IMG/VR virus record: IMGVR_UViG_3300017917_000526
Coordinates: 1-24,014 of that record
From: a virus
Strand: one strand, 5' to 3'
Length of the DNA: 24,014 bases
Position numbers and translations under genes: made by a program. The first letter of the stretch is position 1; each line of letters opens with the position of its first letter. Of the stretch, positions 10,944-24,014 are shown piece after piece. The notes beneath the pieces are model-generated. The model was not told the origin of the DNA and ran no database searches. It saw nothing but the letters and a program-made list of their open reading frames with translations.

Positions 10944-13697
10944 ATGCAGATATATAACGCACTACAGTTAAAAAAAGGAGCTAAAGTTGAGTACAATAAG
11001 ATGGGTACTCTGGTTCAGCCTTTTCAGTTTGTATCTGAAAAAGAAAAAGATGATGAGTGGAGAGCTTGGAATCTTGACTGGTTGGAGTTCCAAGGTATGA
11101 AAATGCTTAGACGTAATGCAAGACGTCTAATGAAAAACTATAAACTTTCTCGTGGTATAATTGATAAAACAGACTATATAGTAGAGGAAGATAATGATAT
11201 GGCTGAGTTGATAGATGTCCTTACTAAAGAAGACGTATCAGCTTTAGAGCTTAAGTTCTATCCTATTATTCCTAATGTTATTAATGTTCTTACAAACGAG
11301 TTTTCTAAAAGAGTTTCTAAAGTTACGTTTAGAGCAGTAGATGACATTTCTTATAATGAAATGTTAGAGACAAAACGTCAAATGATTGAAGATGTTTTGC
11401 TTCAGGAAGCTCAACAGAAACAACTGTTTAAGGCAATTCAGATGGGGATTGAGATGGATAGTGAAGAAGCTCAGCAGATGATGTCTCCTGAAAGTTTAAA
11501 ATCTCTTCCTGAAATAGAAGGTTTCTTTAAGAAAGACTACCGTTCAATGATAGAGGAGTGGGCTACCCACCAAATGTCTGTAGATGAGGAAAGGTTTAAG
11601 ATGCAAGAACTTGAAGAAATGGCGTTTAGAGATATGCTTATTTCAGATAGAGAATTTTGGCATTTTAATATGAGAGAGGATGACTATGATGTAGAACTTT
11701 GGAATCCTCTTCTTACATTCTATCATAAGAGTCCAGATGTACGTTACATTTCTCAGGGTAACTGGGTGGGTAAAATGGATATGATGTCTATATCAGACGT
11801 TGTAGACAAGTATGGTTGGATGATGACACAAGAACAATTAGAAGCTTTAGAAGCCATCTATCCTGCTCGTTCAGCTGGCTACGCTATACAAGGATATCAG
11901 AATGATGGTACATACTATGATCCTACAAGATCTCATGATTGGAACGTCCAGATGCCTTCTATAGGGTATAGAAAGTTTACGTCACTTTATGATGCAAACT
12001 ATCAGTTTGGTGATATTGTTCAATTTATACTTTCAGACTCAGAAGACTTACAAGACTTTGGTAAAAGCTATATGCTTAGAGTTTCTACAATCTACTGGAA
12101 GAGTCAAAGAAAGGTGGGACACTTAACTAAGATTACAGAAGAAGGTGAGATTATACAAGATATTGTTTCTGAAGAATATAAGATAGTTGATAAAGGTGTT
12201 TATAATACAGCTGTATATAAACAAAAGACAAAAGATAATTTAATAGCAGGAGAACATATAGATTGGATATGGATTAATGAAGTGTGGGGTGGTATTAAGA
12301 TTGGTCCTAACAGACCTGCTTTCTGGGGAATGAGTAATCCTGGTGGTCTTAACCCTATCTATCTTGGTCTTAATGGTGGTCGTCCAGGACGTGTACCATT
12401 CCAATTTAAAGGAGACAATAGTATATACGGATGTAAGCTTCCTGTAGAAGGAGCTGTATTCGGAGATAGAAATACAAGATCTATTTCATTAGTTGATCTA
12501 ATGAAACCATTCCAAATAGGCTATAATATTGTTAATAACCAAATAGCTGATATACTAGTAGATGAGCTTGGTACGGTTATTATGTTAGACCAGAACGCTT
12601 TACCACGTCACTCTTTGGGAGAAGACTGGGGTAAAAATAATCTGGCTAAAGCCTATGTGGCTATGAAGAATTTCCAGATGCTTCCTCTGGATACTACAAT
12701 TACTAACACTGAGAATCCTCTTAGCTTCCAACACTATCAAGTGTTAAACTTAGAGCAGACTCAGCGTTTGATGTCTAGGATACAGCTTGCCACTTATTTT
12801 AAAACTCAAGCTTTTGAAGTGATAGGTTTAAATGCACAACGCATGGGTCAACCTATTGCTCAACAACAAACAGCTACAGGTATAGAACAGGCGGCTAATG
12901 CTTCATATGCACAGACAGAACAATACTTTATACAGCATAGTGATAACCTGATGCCACGTGTACATCAGATGAGAACTGACTTGGCTCAGTATTATCACTC
13001 TAAGAAACCTAGTGTACGTCTTCAGTATATTACAGGAAATGATGAGAAGGTTAATTTTCAGATGAATGGTACAGATCTTCTTATGAGAGATCTTAATATA
13101 TTCTGTACTACTAAAACTAATTCTCGTGCTATAATGGAGCAGCTTAAACAGCTGGCTCTTAATAACAACACAACAGGTGCTTCTATATATGATCTTGGAA
13201 ATATTATTAAGTCTGAGTCTATAGCAGAACTTACAAGTGTTCTTAAAGATGCTGAGAGTAAAGTTAAGAAACAGAAAGAAGCTGAAATGCAACAGCAGCA
13301 ACAGATGCAGCAACAACAGTTGGAAGCTCAAGAAAAACAGCTTCAGATGGCACAACAGTTTGAGTCTCAACAAGCTGAGTTGGATAGACAAGCTCGTATT
13401 ACAGAAGCTCAGATTAGAGCAGCTGGATATGGTGCACAATCTGATATTAACCAAAACCAACAATCTGACTACCAAGATGCTATGCAAGGTATACAAGAAC
13501 AGCAGAACTATCAAGATCAGATGAACTTGAAAAGAGAACAGGAAATAAATAGACAGAATCAAAGTAATCAGAAGAACGGAATAGAAAGAGAAAAACTACA
13601 GGCTCAAAGAGATATAGCTGAAAAACAGCTTCAAATTGCTAGAGAGAATAAAAACAAATATGATGTAAAATCTTCTTCTAAAGAAAATAAAAAATAA
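10944..13697 (+). CDS. portal protein with long Gln-rich tail
   Basis: The 917-residue protein lies directly after terL, where portal genes normally lie. It starts MQIYNALQLKKGAKVEYNKM. The body (about 40-760) is a mixed alpha/beta, Trp- and Asp-rich protein with a conspicuous long helix region (LEQTQRLMSRIQLATYFKTQ onward) followed by AQQQTATGIEQAANASYAQT, the kind of long helix and tunnel-loop region seen in large portals. From about residue 770 a Gln/Glu/Lys-rich coiled coil runs to the end (AEMQQQQQMQQQQLEAQEKQ and on). It would form the dodecameric vertex through which DNA enters. Its large size resembles crAss-like and other large Bacteroidota-phage portals. The assignment rests mainly on position and size. 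Confidence 0.75.
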   Translation: MQIYNALQLKKGAKVEYNKMGTLVQPFQFVSEKEKDDEWRAWNLDWLEFQGMKMLRRNARRLMKNYKLSRGIIDKTDYIVEEDNDMAELIDVLTKEDVSALELKFYPIIPNVINVLTNEFSKRVSKVTFRAVDDISYNEMLETKRQMIEDVLLQEAQQKQLFKAIQMGIEMDSEEAQQMMSPESLKSLPEIEGFFKKDYRSMIEEWATHQMSVDEERFKMQELEEMAFRDMLISDREFWHFNMREDDYDVELWNPLLTFYHKSPDVRYISQGNWVGKMDMMSISDVVDKYGWMMTQEQLEALEAIYPARSAGYAIQGYQNDGTYYDPTRSHDWNVQMPSIGYRKFTSLYDANYQFGDIVQFILSDSEDLQDFGKSYMLRVSTIYWKSQRKVGHLTKITEEGEIIQDIVSEEYKIVDKGVYNTAVYKQKTKDNLIAGEHIDWIWINEVWGGIKIGPNRPAFWGMSNPGGLNPIYLGLNGGRPGRVPFQFKGDNSIYGCKLPVEGAVFGDRNTRSISLVDLMKPFQIGYNIVNNQIADILVDELGTVIMLDQNALPRHSLGEDWGKNNLAKAYVAMKNFQMLPLDTTITNTENPLSFQHYQVLNLEQTQRLMSRIQLATYFKTQAFEVIGLNAQRMGQPIAQQQTATGIEQAANASYAQTEQYFIQHSDNLMPRVHQMRTDLAQYYHSKKPSVRLQYITGNDEKVNFQMNGTDLLMRDLNIFCTTKTNSRAIMEQLKQLALNNNTTGASIYDLGNIIKSESIAELTSVLKDAESKVKKQKEAEMQQQQQMQQQQLEAQEKQLQMAQQFESQQAELDRQARITEAQIRAAGYGAQSDINQNQQSDYQDAMQGIQEQQNYQDQMNLKREQEINRQNQSNQKNGIEREKLQAQRDIAEKQLQIARENKNKYDVKSSSKENKK

Positions 13698-13808: not shown

Positions 13809-15071
13809 ATGACTGATAATCAAACATCTGTACAACAAGTTGACTTGGATATTGACAGCTTGTTTTCTGGAGCACCTGGTGCTGATAGCATAGTGACTCC
13901 TTCTGAACCTACTGAGATTAAACCTAATGTGTTTAGTAAGAAACAAACAGATCTTACTTTTTTAGATGCAGATGGTTCTCAAAAAGATGCTGAGGGACAG
14001 CAACAAGCTGTTTCACGTGAAACATCTAAAGAAGTTCTTACTGATATTTTAGATGAGGATGTAAGAAAGGATGAAGAGGAAGAAGATAATGAACCTTCTA
14101 CAAAAGGTAAACCAGGTAGACCTAAAACAGAAAAATCTGGATTAGTAGAGTTTCTAAAGAAACGTATTGAGTCAAAAGAAATGTTTGCTTTTGATGACTA
14201 TGATGAAACTAAACAGTCTCTTGATGACTATCTTAGTGGATTAGGAGAGAAAGACGTAGAAGAACTTTGGCAAGCTAATGTAGATAATCTTAAACAGGAA
14301 GTGGCTGCTGCTACACCTGCTGAGTTTTTTGAAAGTTTACCAGAAGAATTGCAATATGCTGCTAAATATGTAGCAGACGGTGGTCAAGATCTTAAAGGAT
14401 TATTTCAAGCTTTGGCTCAAGTGGAAGAAGTAAGAAGCATGAATCCTACAGATGAGAATGATCAAGAAGGTATTGTAAGAAGTTATTTACAAGCTACCAA
14501 CTTTGGTAATGCAGAAGAAATTGAAGAAGAATTAACTACCTGGAAAGACTTAGGTGTTTTAGAGAAAAAGGCTAAGCAGTTTAAACCTAAGTTAGATCAG
14601 ATGCAAGAACAGATAGTTCATGCTAAACTTCAAGAACAAGAGTATAAGAAACAACAACAAGAAGCTGCTGCTGAAGCATATGTTCAAAATGTATTTGAAG
14701 CTTTGAGACCTGCTGAAATTAATGGTCTTAAATTGGATAAGAAAACACAAGCTCAGTTGTATAGTGGACTTGTTCAACCTCAATATCCATCTATTAGCGG
14801 AAAACCTACCAACTTGTTAGGTCATCTTTTAGAGAGATATCAGTTTGTAGATCCTAACTATCCATTGATTGCAGAAGCTCTTTGGTTACTTTCTGATCCA
14901 GAGTCTTACAGAAATGAGCTTAAAAAACAAGGTAAGAATGATGCAGTGACCCAAACTGTTAGACAATTAAAAACAGAACAGTCTCGTAAAACAGCATCAA
15001 CTTATTATGAAGATCAGGATGAACAAAAACCTAGAAAAATAAGTAGACCACAAAATATTTTTAAAAGATAA
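13809..15071 (+). CDS. scaffold-like head assembly protein
   Basis: The 420-residue protein lies between portal and major capsid, the usual place for a scaffold. It begins MTDNQTSVQQVDLDIDSLFS. The N-terminal 100 residues are acidic and low-complexity, with a run of EEEED near 90-93. An AT-hook-like basic patch KGKPGRPK lies at 99-106, then a helical domain (LVEFLKKRIESKEMFAFDDY) and a coiled coil rich in Gln/Glu/Ala at about 255-300. It ends in a basic segment (KPRKISRPQNIFKR), as scaffolds that bind capsid often do. Inferred role: internal scaffold directing capsid assembly. Leader AAAAAACCAACAAAT. Confidence 0.65.
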   Translation: MTDNQTSVQQVDLDIDSLFSGAPGADSIVTPSEPTEIKPNVFSKKQTDLTFLDADGSQKDAEGQQQAVSRETSKEVLTDILDEDVRKDEEEEDNEPSTKGKPGRPKTEKSGLVEFLKKRIESKEMFAFDDYDETKQSLDDYLSGLGEKDVEELWQANVDNLKQEVAAATPAEFFESLPEELQYAAKYVADGGQDLKGLFQALAQVEEVRSMNPTDENDQEGIVRSYLQATNFGNAEEIEEELTTWKDLGVLEKKAKQFKPKLDQMQEQIVHAKLQEQEYKKQQQEAAAEAYVQNVFEALRPAEINGLKLDKKTQAQLYSGLVQPQYPSISGKPTNLLGHLLERYQFVDPNYPLIAEALWLLSDPESYRNELKKQGKNDAVTQTVRQLKTEQSRKTASTYYEDQDEQKPRKISRPQNIFKR

Positions 15072-15104: not shown

Positions 15105-16727
15105 ATGGCAACTCCAGTTTTAAACAATGGTATATTCCTCCGTGATAACCAGTACCAAACTAGTTCTCACGTGGATTCGTACCACCTGTCTAACCTGTTG
15201 AAGAGTGCAGAGCCTACTGACCTTGGTCCAGTAGATCTGTGGGCTATGGCACAAAAGGTTGAGATGCCTTTGTACCAGATGTCAAGCTTCGGAGGTAAGA
15301 ACGTTATCATGGTAGATAACGCTCGTGGTGAGTACAAGTGGCAGATTCCTGTAGCTCAGGATCTTCCTTACATCGTAGAAAACATTATTGACCCGTCTGT
15401 TACTCAGCCTGGTATTGATGGAACTACATTCAAAATTAAGCTGAACAAGCGTGCTTTTGGACATGGTGACATCATTACTTATGACAAGTACAATGGTTTG
15501 GAAATGTACATCACAGCTGATGACATCGTTCCAGTTGGTGATGGTTTTATCTACACAGTACAGTTGGTAAATAACGATAACAGTGCTTACATTAACATTG
15601 ATTATTTAACAATTGGTACTAAAATTTTCCGTAAAGGTTCTGCTCGTGGAGAGTATGGAGAGCGTTTCTCAGATATTGGAAACGTAACTTCTGGCTTCCG
15701 TGAGTTTTACAACTTCGTAGGTGGAGCTGAGGCTCACGTACATTACAGCATCTCTTCTCGTGCAGATTTGATGATGAAAGGTGGTATGAAAGCTGATGGT
15801 ACTGTACCAGTTATTGAGCTTTGGAGAAACTTTGACAAAGGTTTGGATCCTTCTATCACTTCATTGGAAACAATGGCTGATAAGATGGGTAAAGACTATG
15901 TAAAGAAAGCTTACGAGTCTGGTCAGTTGTCACGTTCTTTCTTGACTACTTTGGAAGCAGCTCACTTGACTAAGATTGCTAACGACATTGAGACCTACTT
16001 GATGTGGGGACAAGGTGGTAAGGTTAAGCAAGATGGTCCAGATGATATTCGTCTGTCTGTGGGTCTGTGGAGACAATTGGATAACTCTTACAAGCGTATT
16101 TACAACCGTGGTTCTTTCAACCTTGACTTGTTCAAGTCTGAGATCTTCAACTTCTTCAATGGTCGTGTGGAGTTCAAAGGACCAGATCCTCAGCGTGCTC
16201 TGATTGTTCAGACAGGTTTGGGTGGTATGAAGCTTGTTAACGAAGCTATTAAGAAAGAAGCAGTTAACTCTGGTTTGGTTCTTAATGCTCATGAGCTTGG
16301 AGCAGTAACTGGTAAAGGTATGGATCTGAACTTTGGATTTGCATACACTAGTTATGTTATTCCGTTCTTGGCTAACGTTAAGTTTGTGTTGAACCCTGCG
16401 TTTGATAACGTACATACAAACGATATTGAAAACCCAATTATTGATGGTTTCCCTCTTTCTTCATATAACTTTATTATCTTTGATATCACTGATAACACAA
16501 ATGATAATATCTACTTGTTGAAATTGTCTTGGGATAATCAATTGAAGTGGTTCTATCAAAATGGTACTATGGATTACATGGGTCGTACTCAAGGCTTTCA
16601 GTCTTCTGGACAGTTCAACGGATACCGTGTGTTCATGACACAAACTATGCCAGCTATCTGGGTTAAAGATCCAACTAAAGTGTTGAAGATCGTTATGAGA
16701 AACCCAATCACTGGTGGTTCATTCTAA
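15105..16727 (+). CDS. major capsid protein
   Basis: The 540-residue protein begins MATPVLNNGIFLRDNQYQTS. It is assigned as the major capsid protein from position after a scaffold-like gene, size, an isolated strong leader, a strong terminator right behind it, and highly biased codon use: Phe TTC, Tyr TAC, Asn AAC and Arg CGT dominate here, while neighbours prefer TTT, TAT, AAT and AGA. Segments such as AEPTDLGPVDLWAMAQKVEM and ANVKFVLNPAFDNVHTNDIE are typical of beta-rich capsid proteins with a long helix. The HK97 fold is expected for this class but cannot be read directly. About 1600 copies or more would be needed for a large head, fitting the codon optimisation. Confidence 0.8.
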   Translation: MATPVLNNGIFLRDNQYQTSSHVDSYHLSNLLKSAEPTDLGPVDLWAMAQKVEMPLYQMSSFGGKNVIMVDNARGEYKWQIPVAQDLPYIVENIIDPSVTQPGIDGTTFKIKLNKRAFGHGDIITYDKYNGLEMYITADDIVPVGDGFIYTVQLVNNDNSAYINIDYLTIGTKIFRKGSARGEYGERFSDIGNVTSGFREFYNFVGGAEAHVHYSISSRADLMMKGGMKADGTVPVIELWRNFDKGLDPSITSLETMADKMGKDYVKKAYESGQLSRSFLTTLEAAHLTKIANDIETYLMWGQGGKVKQDGPDDIRLSVGLWRQLDNSYKRIYNRGSFNLDLFKSEIFNFFNGRVEFKGPDPQRALIVQTGLGGMKLVNEAIKKEAVNSGLVLNAHELGAVTGKGMDLNFGFAYTSYVIPFLANVKFVLNPAFDNVHTNDIENPIIDGFPLSSYNFIIFDITDNTNDNIYLLKLSWDNQLKWFYQNGTMDYMGRTQGFQSSGQFNGYRVFMTQTMPAIWVKDPTKVLKIVMRNPITGGSF

Positions 16728-19036: not shown

Positions 19037-19209
19037 TGGCTAAGTCTAAAGTTAACGCAGCTGGTAATTATACCAAACCTGGAATGAGAAAGTCTTTATT
19101 TAATAAGATTAAAGCTGGCTCTAAGGGTGGTGATCCTGGTGAGTGGTCTGCTCGTAAAGCTCAGATGCTTGCTAGAGAGTATAAATCTAAAGGTGGAGGA
19201 TACAAATAA
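19036..19209 (+). CDS. 57-aa basic Gly/Lys-rich protein
   Basis: ATG at 19036 overlaps the previous stop, and its own stop overlaps the next start (TAATG). The protein begins MAKSKVNAAGNYTKPGMRKS and has the central segment AGSKGGDPGEWSARKAQMLA ending in YKSKGGGYK. The WSARKAQxLAxxYKxxGGGY pattern is one I associate with small proteins from tailed-phage and marine viral genomes, of unknown function. It is highly basic and part of the coupled run of small proteins. Confidence 0.65.
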   Translation: MAKSKVNAAGNYTKPGMRKSLFNKIKAGSKGGDPGEWSARKAQMLAREYKSKGGGYK

Positions 19210-22023: not shown

Positions 22024-22722
22024 ATGAATAACAATCTGCTACAAATAAAAATTAAACAGCGTCTTAATAAGTTAGACTCATTTGACTATGATAATTTAAC
22101 TTGTTGGCAAATAGCTGAAGCTTTTAATAAAGCTCAGATAGAATGGACACGTAGACAGATTTATGGATATAATCTTCGTAAAGAAGGTGCTGAACAATCT
22201 AGTGGATTAATAGATGATCTTCAAAGATTGATGAAACATGATATTGTTTTGATGAATGAAAAGACAATATTTTATGATACTGATATTCCTTCTGACTATC
22301 TTCACTATGTAAGAACAGATGTATTTGCTAAAACAGATTGCTGTCCTAAACGTAGAATGACTGTATATGAAGTGGAAGAGTCTAACATATCTATTGTACT
22401 AAATAGTGATAATAAGAAGCCAAGTTTTGAATGGGGAGAGACTGTTTCAACCATAATGGATAACAGACTTAAAGTGTATACAAATGGTGAATTTAAGATT
22501 GATGAGTGTCATTTGATATATTTTAGAAAACCAAGAGAAGTTCAGTTTAATGGTTGTGTAGATATTAGTACAGGTGTTTCATTTACGGCAGATCAGACGT
22601 GTGAGTTTAATGATGATATAGCTGAGATTATTTGTGATAATGCAGCTATGATTTTAGCTGGAGATATAGAAAGTATGACTCAGTACCAAAGAGAACAACA
22701 ATCAGTACAAACAAATAGTTAA
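22024..22722 (+). CDS. probable head-tail connector or ring protein
   Basis: The start is taken at ATG 22024 (TTAATATG), 1 nt after the previous stop, rather than upstream inside the preceding gene. This 232-residue protein begins MNNNLLQIKIKQRLNKLDSF. An N-terminal helical part (CWQIAEAFNKAQIEWTRRQI) is followed by a beta-rich domain (DTDIPSDYLHYVRTDVFAKT, RRMTVYEVEESNISIVLNSD) and a short helical end (ICDNAAMILAGDIESMTQYQ). This helix-then-beta layout and position after the capsid genes resemble head-tail connector proteins of large Bacteroidota phages. The role is inferred. Confidence 0.6.
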   Translation: MNNNLLQIKIKQRLNKLDSFDYDNLTCWQIAEAFNKAQIEWTRRQIYGYNLRKEGAEQSSGLIDDLQRLMKHDIVLMNEKTIFYDTDIPSDYLHYVRTDVFAKTDCCPKRRMTVYEVEESNISIVLNSDNKKPSFEWGETVSTIMDNRLKVYTNGEFKIDECHLIYFRKPREVQFNGCVDISTGVSFTADQTCEFNDDIAEIICDNAAMILAGDIESMTQYQREQQSVQTNS

Positions 22723-22724
22723 TA

Positions 22725-23309
22725 ATGCAAAAGATAGTTCGTCCTACGGTATTTAATACAAAAAGTTCTGTAACATCTGAACCTATAAAAACAGGAATTA
22801 AAACATCATCTACTGAAGGTAAAAACCCTATGATTGATGAATCCTGTATAAGTTTTTTAAATTATAGAGTGCAGCAAGAAGATCAATCTGCTAGAATTTA
22901 TTTATCAATGTCTCTTTGGTTAGACAATAATGGATATGTAAATGCTGCAAAACTTTGGAAAAAGTATTCAGATGAGGAGAGAGGACATGCTGATATAGCT
23001 CGTACTTATCTTCTTAATATGGGAGTACAACCAGCTACACCATCCTTGGAACAGCCTTCTGAAACTTATGAAGGTCTTCCTGATATTATATATCAGTCTT
23101 TTGATCATGAGGTGGAGATTACCAGACAATGTAGTGATCTTGCTACCCATGCTTTAAAAGATGGATCTCACATGCTCTATGAACTAGCTCTTCATTATCT
23201 AAAAGAACAAAATGAAGAACATGGTAAAATGCAAAACTGGGTAGATCAGTTAAAAGCATTTGGAGAAGATAAGATAGCTATTAGATTACTAGACAACGCA
23301 ATGGGATAA
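22725..23309 (+). CDS. ferritin with N-terminal extension
   Basis: This 194-residue protein is a bacterial-type ferritin. The diiron ligands line up exactly with E. coli FtnA at a constant offset of 35: E52, E85, H88, E129, Q162 and E165 for FtnA E17, E50, H53, E94, Q127 and E130, within QQEDQSARIYL, SDEERGHA, FDHEVEIT and KEQNEEH. Iron oxidation and storage activity is therefore likely. The 35-residue extension begins MQKIVRPTVFNTK and continues to TEGKNP; its first residues recur on the Dps-like protein encoded next. The gene sits among virion genes, so the shell may be packaged with DNA or protect it from oxidative damage. Leader TTAATAATG, spacing 2 nt from the preceding gene. Confidence 0.9.
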   Translation: MQKIVRPTVFNTKSSVTSEPIKTGIKTSSTEGKNPMIDESCISFLNYRVQQEDQSARIYLSMSLWLDNNGYVNAAKLWKKYSDEERGHADIARTYLLNMGVQPATPSLEQPSETYEGLPDIIYQSFDHEVEITRQCSDLATHALKDGSHMLYELALHYLKEQNEEHGKMQNWVDQLKAFGEDKIAIRLLDNAMG

Positions 23310-23310
23310 T

Positions 23311-23781
23311 ATGCAAAAGATACCTAGACCTTCCGTTTTATCGGCTAAAGCTCCTGAAATGCCTAAAGGACATATTGGAGCTGGAAATTCCCAAATGGGA
23401 CCAGTGTGTACAATGTGTGCAGCACTTGGAAATGAACTTATGAATGCTGCTACAAGCTTTCATAGACTACATCTAAAAGTGCAGGGATTGGGATCCTATG
23501 CTGCCCATAAAGCTTTAGGTGATCTTTATGATGCTCTTCCTGATCATGCTGATGATCTAATAGAGCAGTATCAAGGTGCTGCTGAAAAGATTTTAGACAT
23601 TCCTTCTACAACACCTAGAACAGTTAATTCAGTAGAAGAAGCTGTAGCATACTTACGAGAACTTCACAATATGACAACTAATCTTCAAGATTCTATGCCA
23701 TATAGTGAGATTACAAATCAGTTAGATGAAATAAAAAGTACTGTAGACTCAGCTAAATATAAGTTGTTGTTTTTAAAATAA
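23311..23781 (+). CDS. Dps-like ferritin-superfamily protein
   Basis: This 156-residue protein has the Dps ferroxidase spacing: H54 and H66 (12 apart), D81 (15 further) and E85 (4 further), in HLKVQGLGSYAAHKALGDLY and DHADDLIEQYQG. One ligand, the Asp four residues after the second His in Dps, is Gly70 here with Asp71 next to it, so the site is slightly altered. The N-terminus MQKIPRPSVLSAK matches that of the preceding ferritin. C33 and C36 form a CxxC. The C-terminal helices (EEAVAYLRELHNMTTNLQDS) complete a four-helix bundle. It resembles phage proteins I recall as DUF5856-like. Iron storage and DNA protection are expected; the tag suggests targeting. Confidence 0.8.
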   Translation: MQKIPRPSVLSAKAPEMPKGHIGAGNSQMGPVCTMCAALGNELMNAATSFHRLHLKVQGLGSYAAHKALGDLYDALPDHADDLIEQYQGAAEKILDIPSTTPRTVNSVEEAVAYLRELHNMTTNLQDSMPYSEITNQLDEIKSTVDSAKYKLLFLK

Positions 23782-23832: not shown

Positions 23833-24014
23833 ATGTATTTTAATCACGCCTTTAGGAAAACTTTCCTAATTGCAAAAGACGGTGGTGTTATTGATTACAC
23901 CACAACAGGTAACACTGCTCAGCTTACAGCTGGACAAATTGGTTTGTTTGATGCTCAAACTTACACAGCATTTCCTGGAACAAACAGTGGTAAACCATTT
24001 ATTATTGCTCAGGG
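23833..24014 (+). CDS. N-terminus of a probable structural protein, cut by right edge
   Basis: ATG at 23833 opens a frame that runs off the window, with 60 codons visible. It begins MYFNHAFRKTFLIAKDGGVI and continues DYTTTGNTAQLTAGQIGLFD to FIIAQG. The N-terminus, with a beta-rich, Thr/Gly-rich style, reads like a tail or capsid component. Its leader (AGTATATTATATT and TAACCCTTTAAATTT) shares elements with the capsid gene, which suggests abundant late expression. A tail-sheath, tube or fibre protein is possible; the family cannot be told from this part alone. Confidence 0.65.
   Translation, partial: MYFNHAFRKTFLIAKDGGVIDYTTTGNTAQLTAGQIGLFDAQTYTAFPGTNSGKPFIIAQ

Follow-up and report, generated by a model that had tools for sequence, protein, structure and literature searches.

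In encapsulins, a short terminal peptide directs a ferritin-superfamily enzyme into a shell of the HK97 fold. For phage P22, the C-terminus of the scaffolding protein is known to bind the coat protein, and engineered cargo is loaded by fusion to that region (PMC9962691). Crassvirus virions contain internal cargo proteins, and the tail of phicrAss001 has constrictions of under 50 angstroms (PMC10172136). The literature searched yielded no virion proteomics for the phages considered here and mentions neither ferritin in crAss-like phages nor DUF5856 in phage virions. Here, we discuss a phage locus in which a ferritin and a DUF5856 (Dps-like) protein share an N-terminal peptide, hereafter the tag, which resembles the C-terminus of the probable scaffolding protein encoded on the same DNA.

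The stretch of DNA analysed (the window; 24,014 bases) comprises the entire record. It is part of the genome of a crAss-like phage (Crassvirales), as assigned from its crassvirus capsid protein and from a ring protein whose fold is like that of the crAss001 tail barrel. Portal and terminase are also encoded. The relevant features are as follows.

10944..13697, plus strand: portal protein (phrog_6547, E 9e-93)
13809..15071, plus strand: probable scaffolding protein, 420 aa (gene order, alignment A7, charge)
13920..13943, plus strand: KPNVFSKK segment near the scaffold N-terminus (alignment A7, scaffold list)
15036..15068, plus strand: codons of the scaffold C-terminal motif KISRPQNIFKR, which matches the tag
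15105..16727, plus strand: crassvirus major capsid protein (PF23898, E 2e-32; crAss001 gp32, E 0.002)
22024..22722, plus strand: tail-barrel ring protein, upstream slot marker (AlphaFold2 model against 7qoj chain D)
22725..23309, plus strand: FtnA-type ferritin, 194 aa (PF00210, E 2e-19)
22725..22763, plus strand: ferritin tag codons, MQKIVRPTVFNTK, kept in relatives
23311..23781, plus strand: DUF5856 (Dps-like) protein, 156 aa (PF19174, E 9e-17; phrog_858, E 1e-21)
23311..23349, plus strand: DUF5856 tag codons, MQKIPRPSVLSAK, read from the sequence
23833..24014, plus strand: downstream slot marker, start of a YFHAF-type gene (MYFNHAFRKTFL...) that runs off the window end

The open reading frame (ORF) of the ring protein is listed from 21973, and the conserved start at 22024 was taken. 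A PDB sequence search with this protein gave no match; its identity came from structure comparison, in which its AlphaFold2 model matched chain D of the crAss001 tail barrel (7qoj) with a TM-score of 0.75 and a Foldseek E of 5e-12. The first-pass annotation had placed the ferritin/Dps pair next to head genes, which needs correction, the adjoining upstream gene being that of the tail-barrel ring. Between positions 19209 and 22022, the window carries a series of small genes for lysine-rich products in which KxxGG-type motifs recur (KKYQKGG, KMQAGG, KMKMGG, KYQEGG), together with the gene of a conserved MAKSPAWQR...GGLNAKGRASYN protein, and GG motifs of this kind also occur in cargo-region proteins of the relatives G003 and G018.

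The ferritin is identified by its PF00210 match (70 bits against a cut-off of 24.5), and its closest PDB ferritin is 3qz3 of Vibrio cholerae (E 4e-34); its score stays below the cut-off of the NCBIfam FtnA equivalog model (54 of 178 bits). Positions 1-155 of that model correspond to residues 36-190, so that the fold begins at about residue 36 and the constant offset of 35 to Escherichia coli FtnA, proposed at first sight of the sequence, is borne out. Judged from this alignment, the tag is an addition to the ferritin fold. At the FtnA ligand positions, the window ferritin has E52, E84, E85, H88, E129, E161, Q162, E164 and E165, which are invariant in 18 of 18 phage ferritins. Among these, E52, E85, H88, E129, Q162 and E165 correspond to the diiron ligands E17, E50, H53, E94, Q127 and E130 of E. 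coli FtnA. Both the diiron and the third-site ligands are intact.

The neighbouring protein had been called Dps-like, a description that holds for its predicted fold; by profile, it formally belongs to DUF5856 (PF19174, 62 bits against a cut-off of 34.6), and it stays below the cut-offs of PF00210 (14.5 bits against 24.5, E 0.03) and of the NCBIfam DpsA model (14 of 170 bits). Its AlphaFold2 model comprises a four-helix bundle (residues 31-154) preceded by an arm, residues 1-30, that is predicted to be disordered. The top Foldseek matches of this model are nearly all Dps, with TM-scores of about 0.5-0.68 and a best E of only 2e-3. The inter-subunit ferroxidase ligands of E. coli Dps are H51, H63, D67, D78 and E82. 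H54, H66, D81 and E85 of the DUF5856 protein match such ligands and are invariant in its relatives, and the equivalent of D67 is G70, with D71 adjoining. A DUF5856 homologue in phage phiR1-37 (g280) is annotated as "phage structural protein".

The common N-terminal peptide described in the first-pass annotation is confirmed, the ferritin starting with MQKIVRPTVFNTK and the DUF5856 protein with MQKIPRPSVLSAK, as is the identity of the first 12 nucleotides of both genes (ATGCAAAAGATA). Beyond these nucleotides, the codons diverge (CGT/AGA for R, GTA/GTT for V), and the peptide is therefore not a recent copy. Aligned without gaps, the two 13-mers score 36, a value reached by none of 200,000 pairs in which one partner had been shuffled (maximum 28), and the next best N-terminus within the window scores 14. 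Shuffles served as the chance control; random pairs of real N-termini were spoiled by homologous pairs and were dropped. In relatives, the ferritin tag reads MQKIARPTIFSTK, MAIQKIPRPTIFSTK or MKTIPRPTVFSVK. The arm is absent from ten flavobacterial chromosomal ferritins of 42-50% identity, which read M[KE]TKSEFL..(E/A).V.LLNYR (in two of the ten, the longest ORF starts earlier, yet the same MKTKSEF start is present), and the tag is absent from three DUF5856 proteins of other phages. The idea that it might recur on further proteins of the same genomes was not borne out, since the gene-like hits of a regular expression among 1,828 ORFs were almost all proteins of this gene position, and no other N-terminus came near the tag in 14 genomes. 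A scan for the motif at the DNA level was abandoned, the pattern being too degenerate.

Two observations concern similar N-termini elsewhere. On one contig (L018, 6442-7239), a third protein, of 265 aa and encoded after the capsid gene, has a tag-like start in the same register (MFKGPKEVMLKRIPRPGYFG). In another genome (G012, contig L023, 40922-44643), a ferritin starting with MKTLKRILK adjoins a 1065-aa cargo-like gene starting with MKKLKREIPK, and this pair lies away from the ring gene.

What was seen in one window extends to many related phages. Relatives were fetched via the ring gene only, blind to the gene downstream; 52 distinct loci extended far enough in that direction, and in these the gene following the ring gene encodes DUF5856 in 47, ferritin in four and neither in one. 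With the addition of loci fetched by ferritin or DUF5856, which biases the ratio, 148 ring genes are followed by DUF5856 (97), ferritin (46), both (2) or neither (3), the window being left out of this set as too short downstream. Both genes are found in three lineages, including that of the window; they occurred together in none of the 20 contigs first tested. Homologues lacking the peptide at the same place had been named beforehand as an argument against a tag, and an examination across the slot loci did not overturn it. The two families share their peptides in this slot, as in MQKIARPTIFS (ferritin) and MQKLSRPSIFS (DUF5856), MKTIPRPTVFS and MKTISRPSIFS, or MEAKPRSLKR and MEAKPRMLKR, and MAEQPRNLLKR stands on both a ferritin and a DUF5856 protein. 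A motif specific to MQKI was not upheld; more generally, the peptides read basic-x-[IL]-x-[RK]-[P/N/S/D], within which two classes, defined by regular expressions, can be distinguished, namely KIxRP and, in other lineages, LKR.

On a tree of 139 ring proteins, a quick tree in which 52 of 136 forks are open, at least 20-21 changes of domain type stand against three of tag class, as compared with 33-37 and 31-37, respectively, in the few shuffles listed. On supported branches, there are ten independent domain swaps, and the tag class is unchanged in nine to ten of these. The similarity between ferritin and DUF5856 tags falls with the distance of the ring proteins (Spearman -0.47, permutation p 0.001), whereas the 13 residues that follow the tag (the linker) show no such fall (Spearman +0.15). 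Cross-family tag similarity thus tracks the phage lineage; that of the adjacent linker does not. Spread of the tag by simple duplication, as suggested at first, finds no support in these data, which agree with repeated domain exchange behind a retained tag.

Some genomes have an alternative slot beside the portal gene (L018, 3088-3612; L033-L036 and L038, gene after the portal), which holds ferritin or DUF5856. The N-terminus of the DUF5856 protein is there mostly M[SG]Y[IL]xK[ML]K (e.g., MSYIDKMK), unlike the tag beside the ring gene, and the neighbouring scaffold-like protein ends in QLDMKRLFE. This lineage was considered as a test of co-variation, both ends differing from those of the main lineage, and was rejected because their mutual likeness is too weak. 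In a further genome (G013, 25149-26517), a gene beside the ferritin combines a homing-endonuclease-type start with a ferritin-like C-terminus (MFESFGTEQITLLHIDEKMGELA), which suggests, from its sequence, that a mobile gene has interrupted a copy of the ferritin gene.

In P22, the genes of portal, scaffold and capsid follow one another in this order. In the window, the gene between portal and capsid encodes a 420-aa protein with an acidic body (net charge -34 without the last 15 residues) and a basic C-terminus (+6 in the last 15); searches against PHROGs, NCBIfam, the PDB and phage records gave no match for it, and gene order, charge and layout indicate that it is probably the scaffold. This protein ends in the tag motif (RKISRPQNIFKR). 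Tag-like ends are found in relatives (RKIARPQNIFKR, RKIAKPQNIFKR, QKLQRPSQNFFKR, RRIPRNDSFFKR and similar), and nearly all relatives listed have related C-terminal ends; among 29 further contigs, two of the ORFs taken (L361, L164) turned out to be another gene and were left out. Near the scaffold N-terminus, KPNVFSKK is conserved in most relatives and resembles, by eye, the RPxIFSxK half of the tag.

Among the 6,599 scan positions on window-encoded proteins other than the two tagged ones, none matches the tag profile better than the scaffold C-terminus. When a profile of the KIxRP class only was run over 12 genomes (6,599 to 36,759 scan positions each), the scaffold end ranked first in the whole proteome in three, including the window, and among the top three in six; it ranked poorly in two (G015 and G016). 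The likeness stands out most in the KIxRP class; with an LKR-class profile, the scaffold C-terminus is not singled out. Across 41 genomes, tag and scaffold end reach a mean score of 15.9 in their best seven-residue match, compared with 11.2 for shuffled ends, 10.3 for other C-termini that are basic and 8.5 for random ones. Lineage-specific co-variation is seen as a weak trend only (15.9 with the own lineage's end against 15.1 with another lineage's, sd 0.6). The likeness of the tag to the probable scaffold C-terminus, a likeness of sequence, is new here.

The suggestion that the shared, added peptide targets proteins to the virion gains strong support from its retention on both protein families of the slot in many phages, from its absence in the flavobacterial ferritins and the three DUF5856 proteins of other phages, and from the scaffold match; its reading as a tag that docks to the assembling head is well supported. 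Given its resemblance to the probable scaffold C-terminus, the tag most likely binds the site that the scaffold would use on the procapsid, on the capsid protein or at the portal vertex; the proposed partner is the crassvirus major capsid protein. An iron cage, either a ferritin 24-mer or a 12-mer of the DUF5856/Dps-like protein, would thereby be loaded as internal head cargo. In known structures, the N-termini of ferritin and Dps cages face outward, so that each cage would display many copies of the motif, 24 or 12. The cargo domain would be interchangeable, lineages exchanging ferritin and DUF5856 behind the retained tag. As the metal ligands are conserved in both families, iron chemistry would be the point, the cage sequestering and oxidising iron beside the packaged DNA or, after ejection, in the host; an intact cage would, however, not pass a tail with constrictions like those of phicrAss001. 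Taken as a whole, this mechanism, in which a scaffold-site docking tag loads an iron cage as head cargo, is the one that we think somewhat probable.

Alternatively, the tag may dock the cage to a part of the tail or portal (the ring, the YFHAF protein or the portal itself), its resemblance to the scaffold reflecting a general motif. The position of the slot, directly between the ring and YFHAF genes with a spacing of 1-2 nt in the window, is in keeping with such docking, as are the alternative slot adjoining the portal and the fact that the tag class follows the ring lineage. However, any co-inherited structural gene would give the same lineage signal, and by the KIxRP profile, no C-terminus is more tag-like than that of the scaffold in most of the genomes scanned; we consider docking of this kind unlikely.

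N-terminal tails are a common means of DNA binding in Dps-type proteins, and the tags are basic; the arm could, hence, bind DNA in the manner of the lysine-rich E. coli Dps N-terminus and coat phage DNA in the cell. This is very improbable in view of the specific hydrophobic and proline positions, which are kept and are common to unrelated domains while the following residues vary, and of the same motif at the end of the probable scaffold.

In four of five groups, which were picked by the tag motif and are biased to that extent (the fifth was misregistered), pN/pS is lower in the tag than in the linker (0.33-0.44 vs 0.81-1.34), and identical tag residues of the two families often use different codons. 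A functionless peptide left by recombination, in which the 5' end stays and the rest is replaced, would agree with the frequent domain swaps behind a kept 5' end and with the 12 identical nucleotides of the window, but is hardly credible in the face of this selection pattern and of identical peptides written differently (four synonymous codon differences in MAEQPRNLLKR), and it leaves the scaffold C-terminus match unexplained.

If the docking-tag reading holds, the heads of tailed phages would have a short label of natural origin that addresses protein cargo to them, serves two iron cages and is readable from sequence alone. It makes the presence of iron-handling enzymes in phage virions a directly testable question, would offer capsid engineering a loading tag much shorter than the P22 scaffold domain, and the motif could help in the search for additional cargo of uncultured crAss-like phages.

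Compared with described systems, the DUF5856 proteins of T4-like phages and g280 of phiR1-37 belong to the same domain family but are without the tagged arm, and the T4-like gene examined is not part of a structural block. Gratiaviridae gut phages have DPS and manganese-catalase genes, likewise of the ferritin superfamily and proposed for oxidative stress; these proteins are, however, proposed to act in the infected cell, and the available text describes neither a tag nor a fixed slot among structural genes (PMC8008677). phicrAss001 provides the precedent of virus-encoded proteins inside heads and tails (C1, C2 and RNA polymerase subunits), but these are large ejection and polymerase proteins, and the accessible part of the account mentions no ferritin, Dps or shared short tag (PMC10172136). 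Engineered P22 particles are alike in that cargo enters the capsid bearing the scaffold's C-terminal coat-binding region (PMC9962691); there, this region is a folded helix-turn-helix used by human design, whereas the phage tag is a natural motif of about ten residues at the cargo N-terminus, with docking proposed. That these phages have a natural cage-in-capsid system, with whole ferritin or Dps cages loaded via an N-terminal copy of the scaffold's capsid-binding motif and cages swapped between lineages, is a proposal on which our own judgement is evenly divided. With encapsulins, whose cargo includes ferritin-like proteins and DyP peroxidase, the locus shares a short terminal peptide on a ferritin-superfamily protein and an HK97-fold shell, and by analogy the tag would, at most, work like encapsulin cargo loading. 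In the window, the phage capsid gene (PF23898) is the only one identified for an HK97-type shell; in encapsulins, the peptide is usually C-terminal and the shell cellular, whereas here the peptide is N-terminal, the shell would be a phage head, and two cage families have one tag in common.
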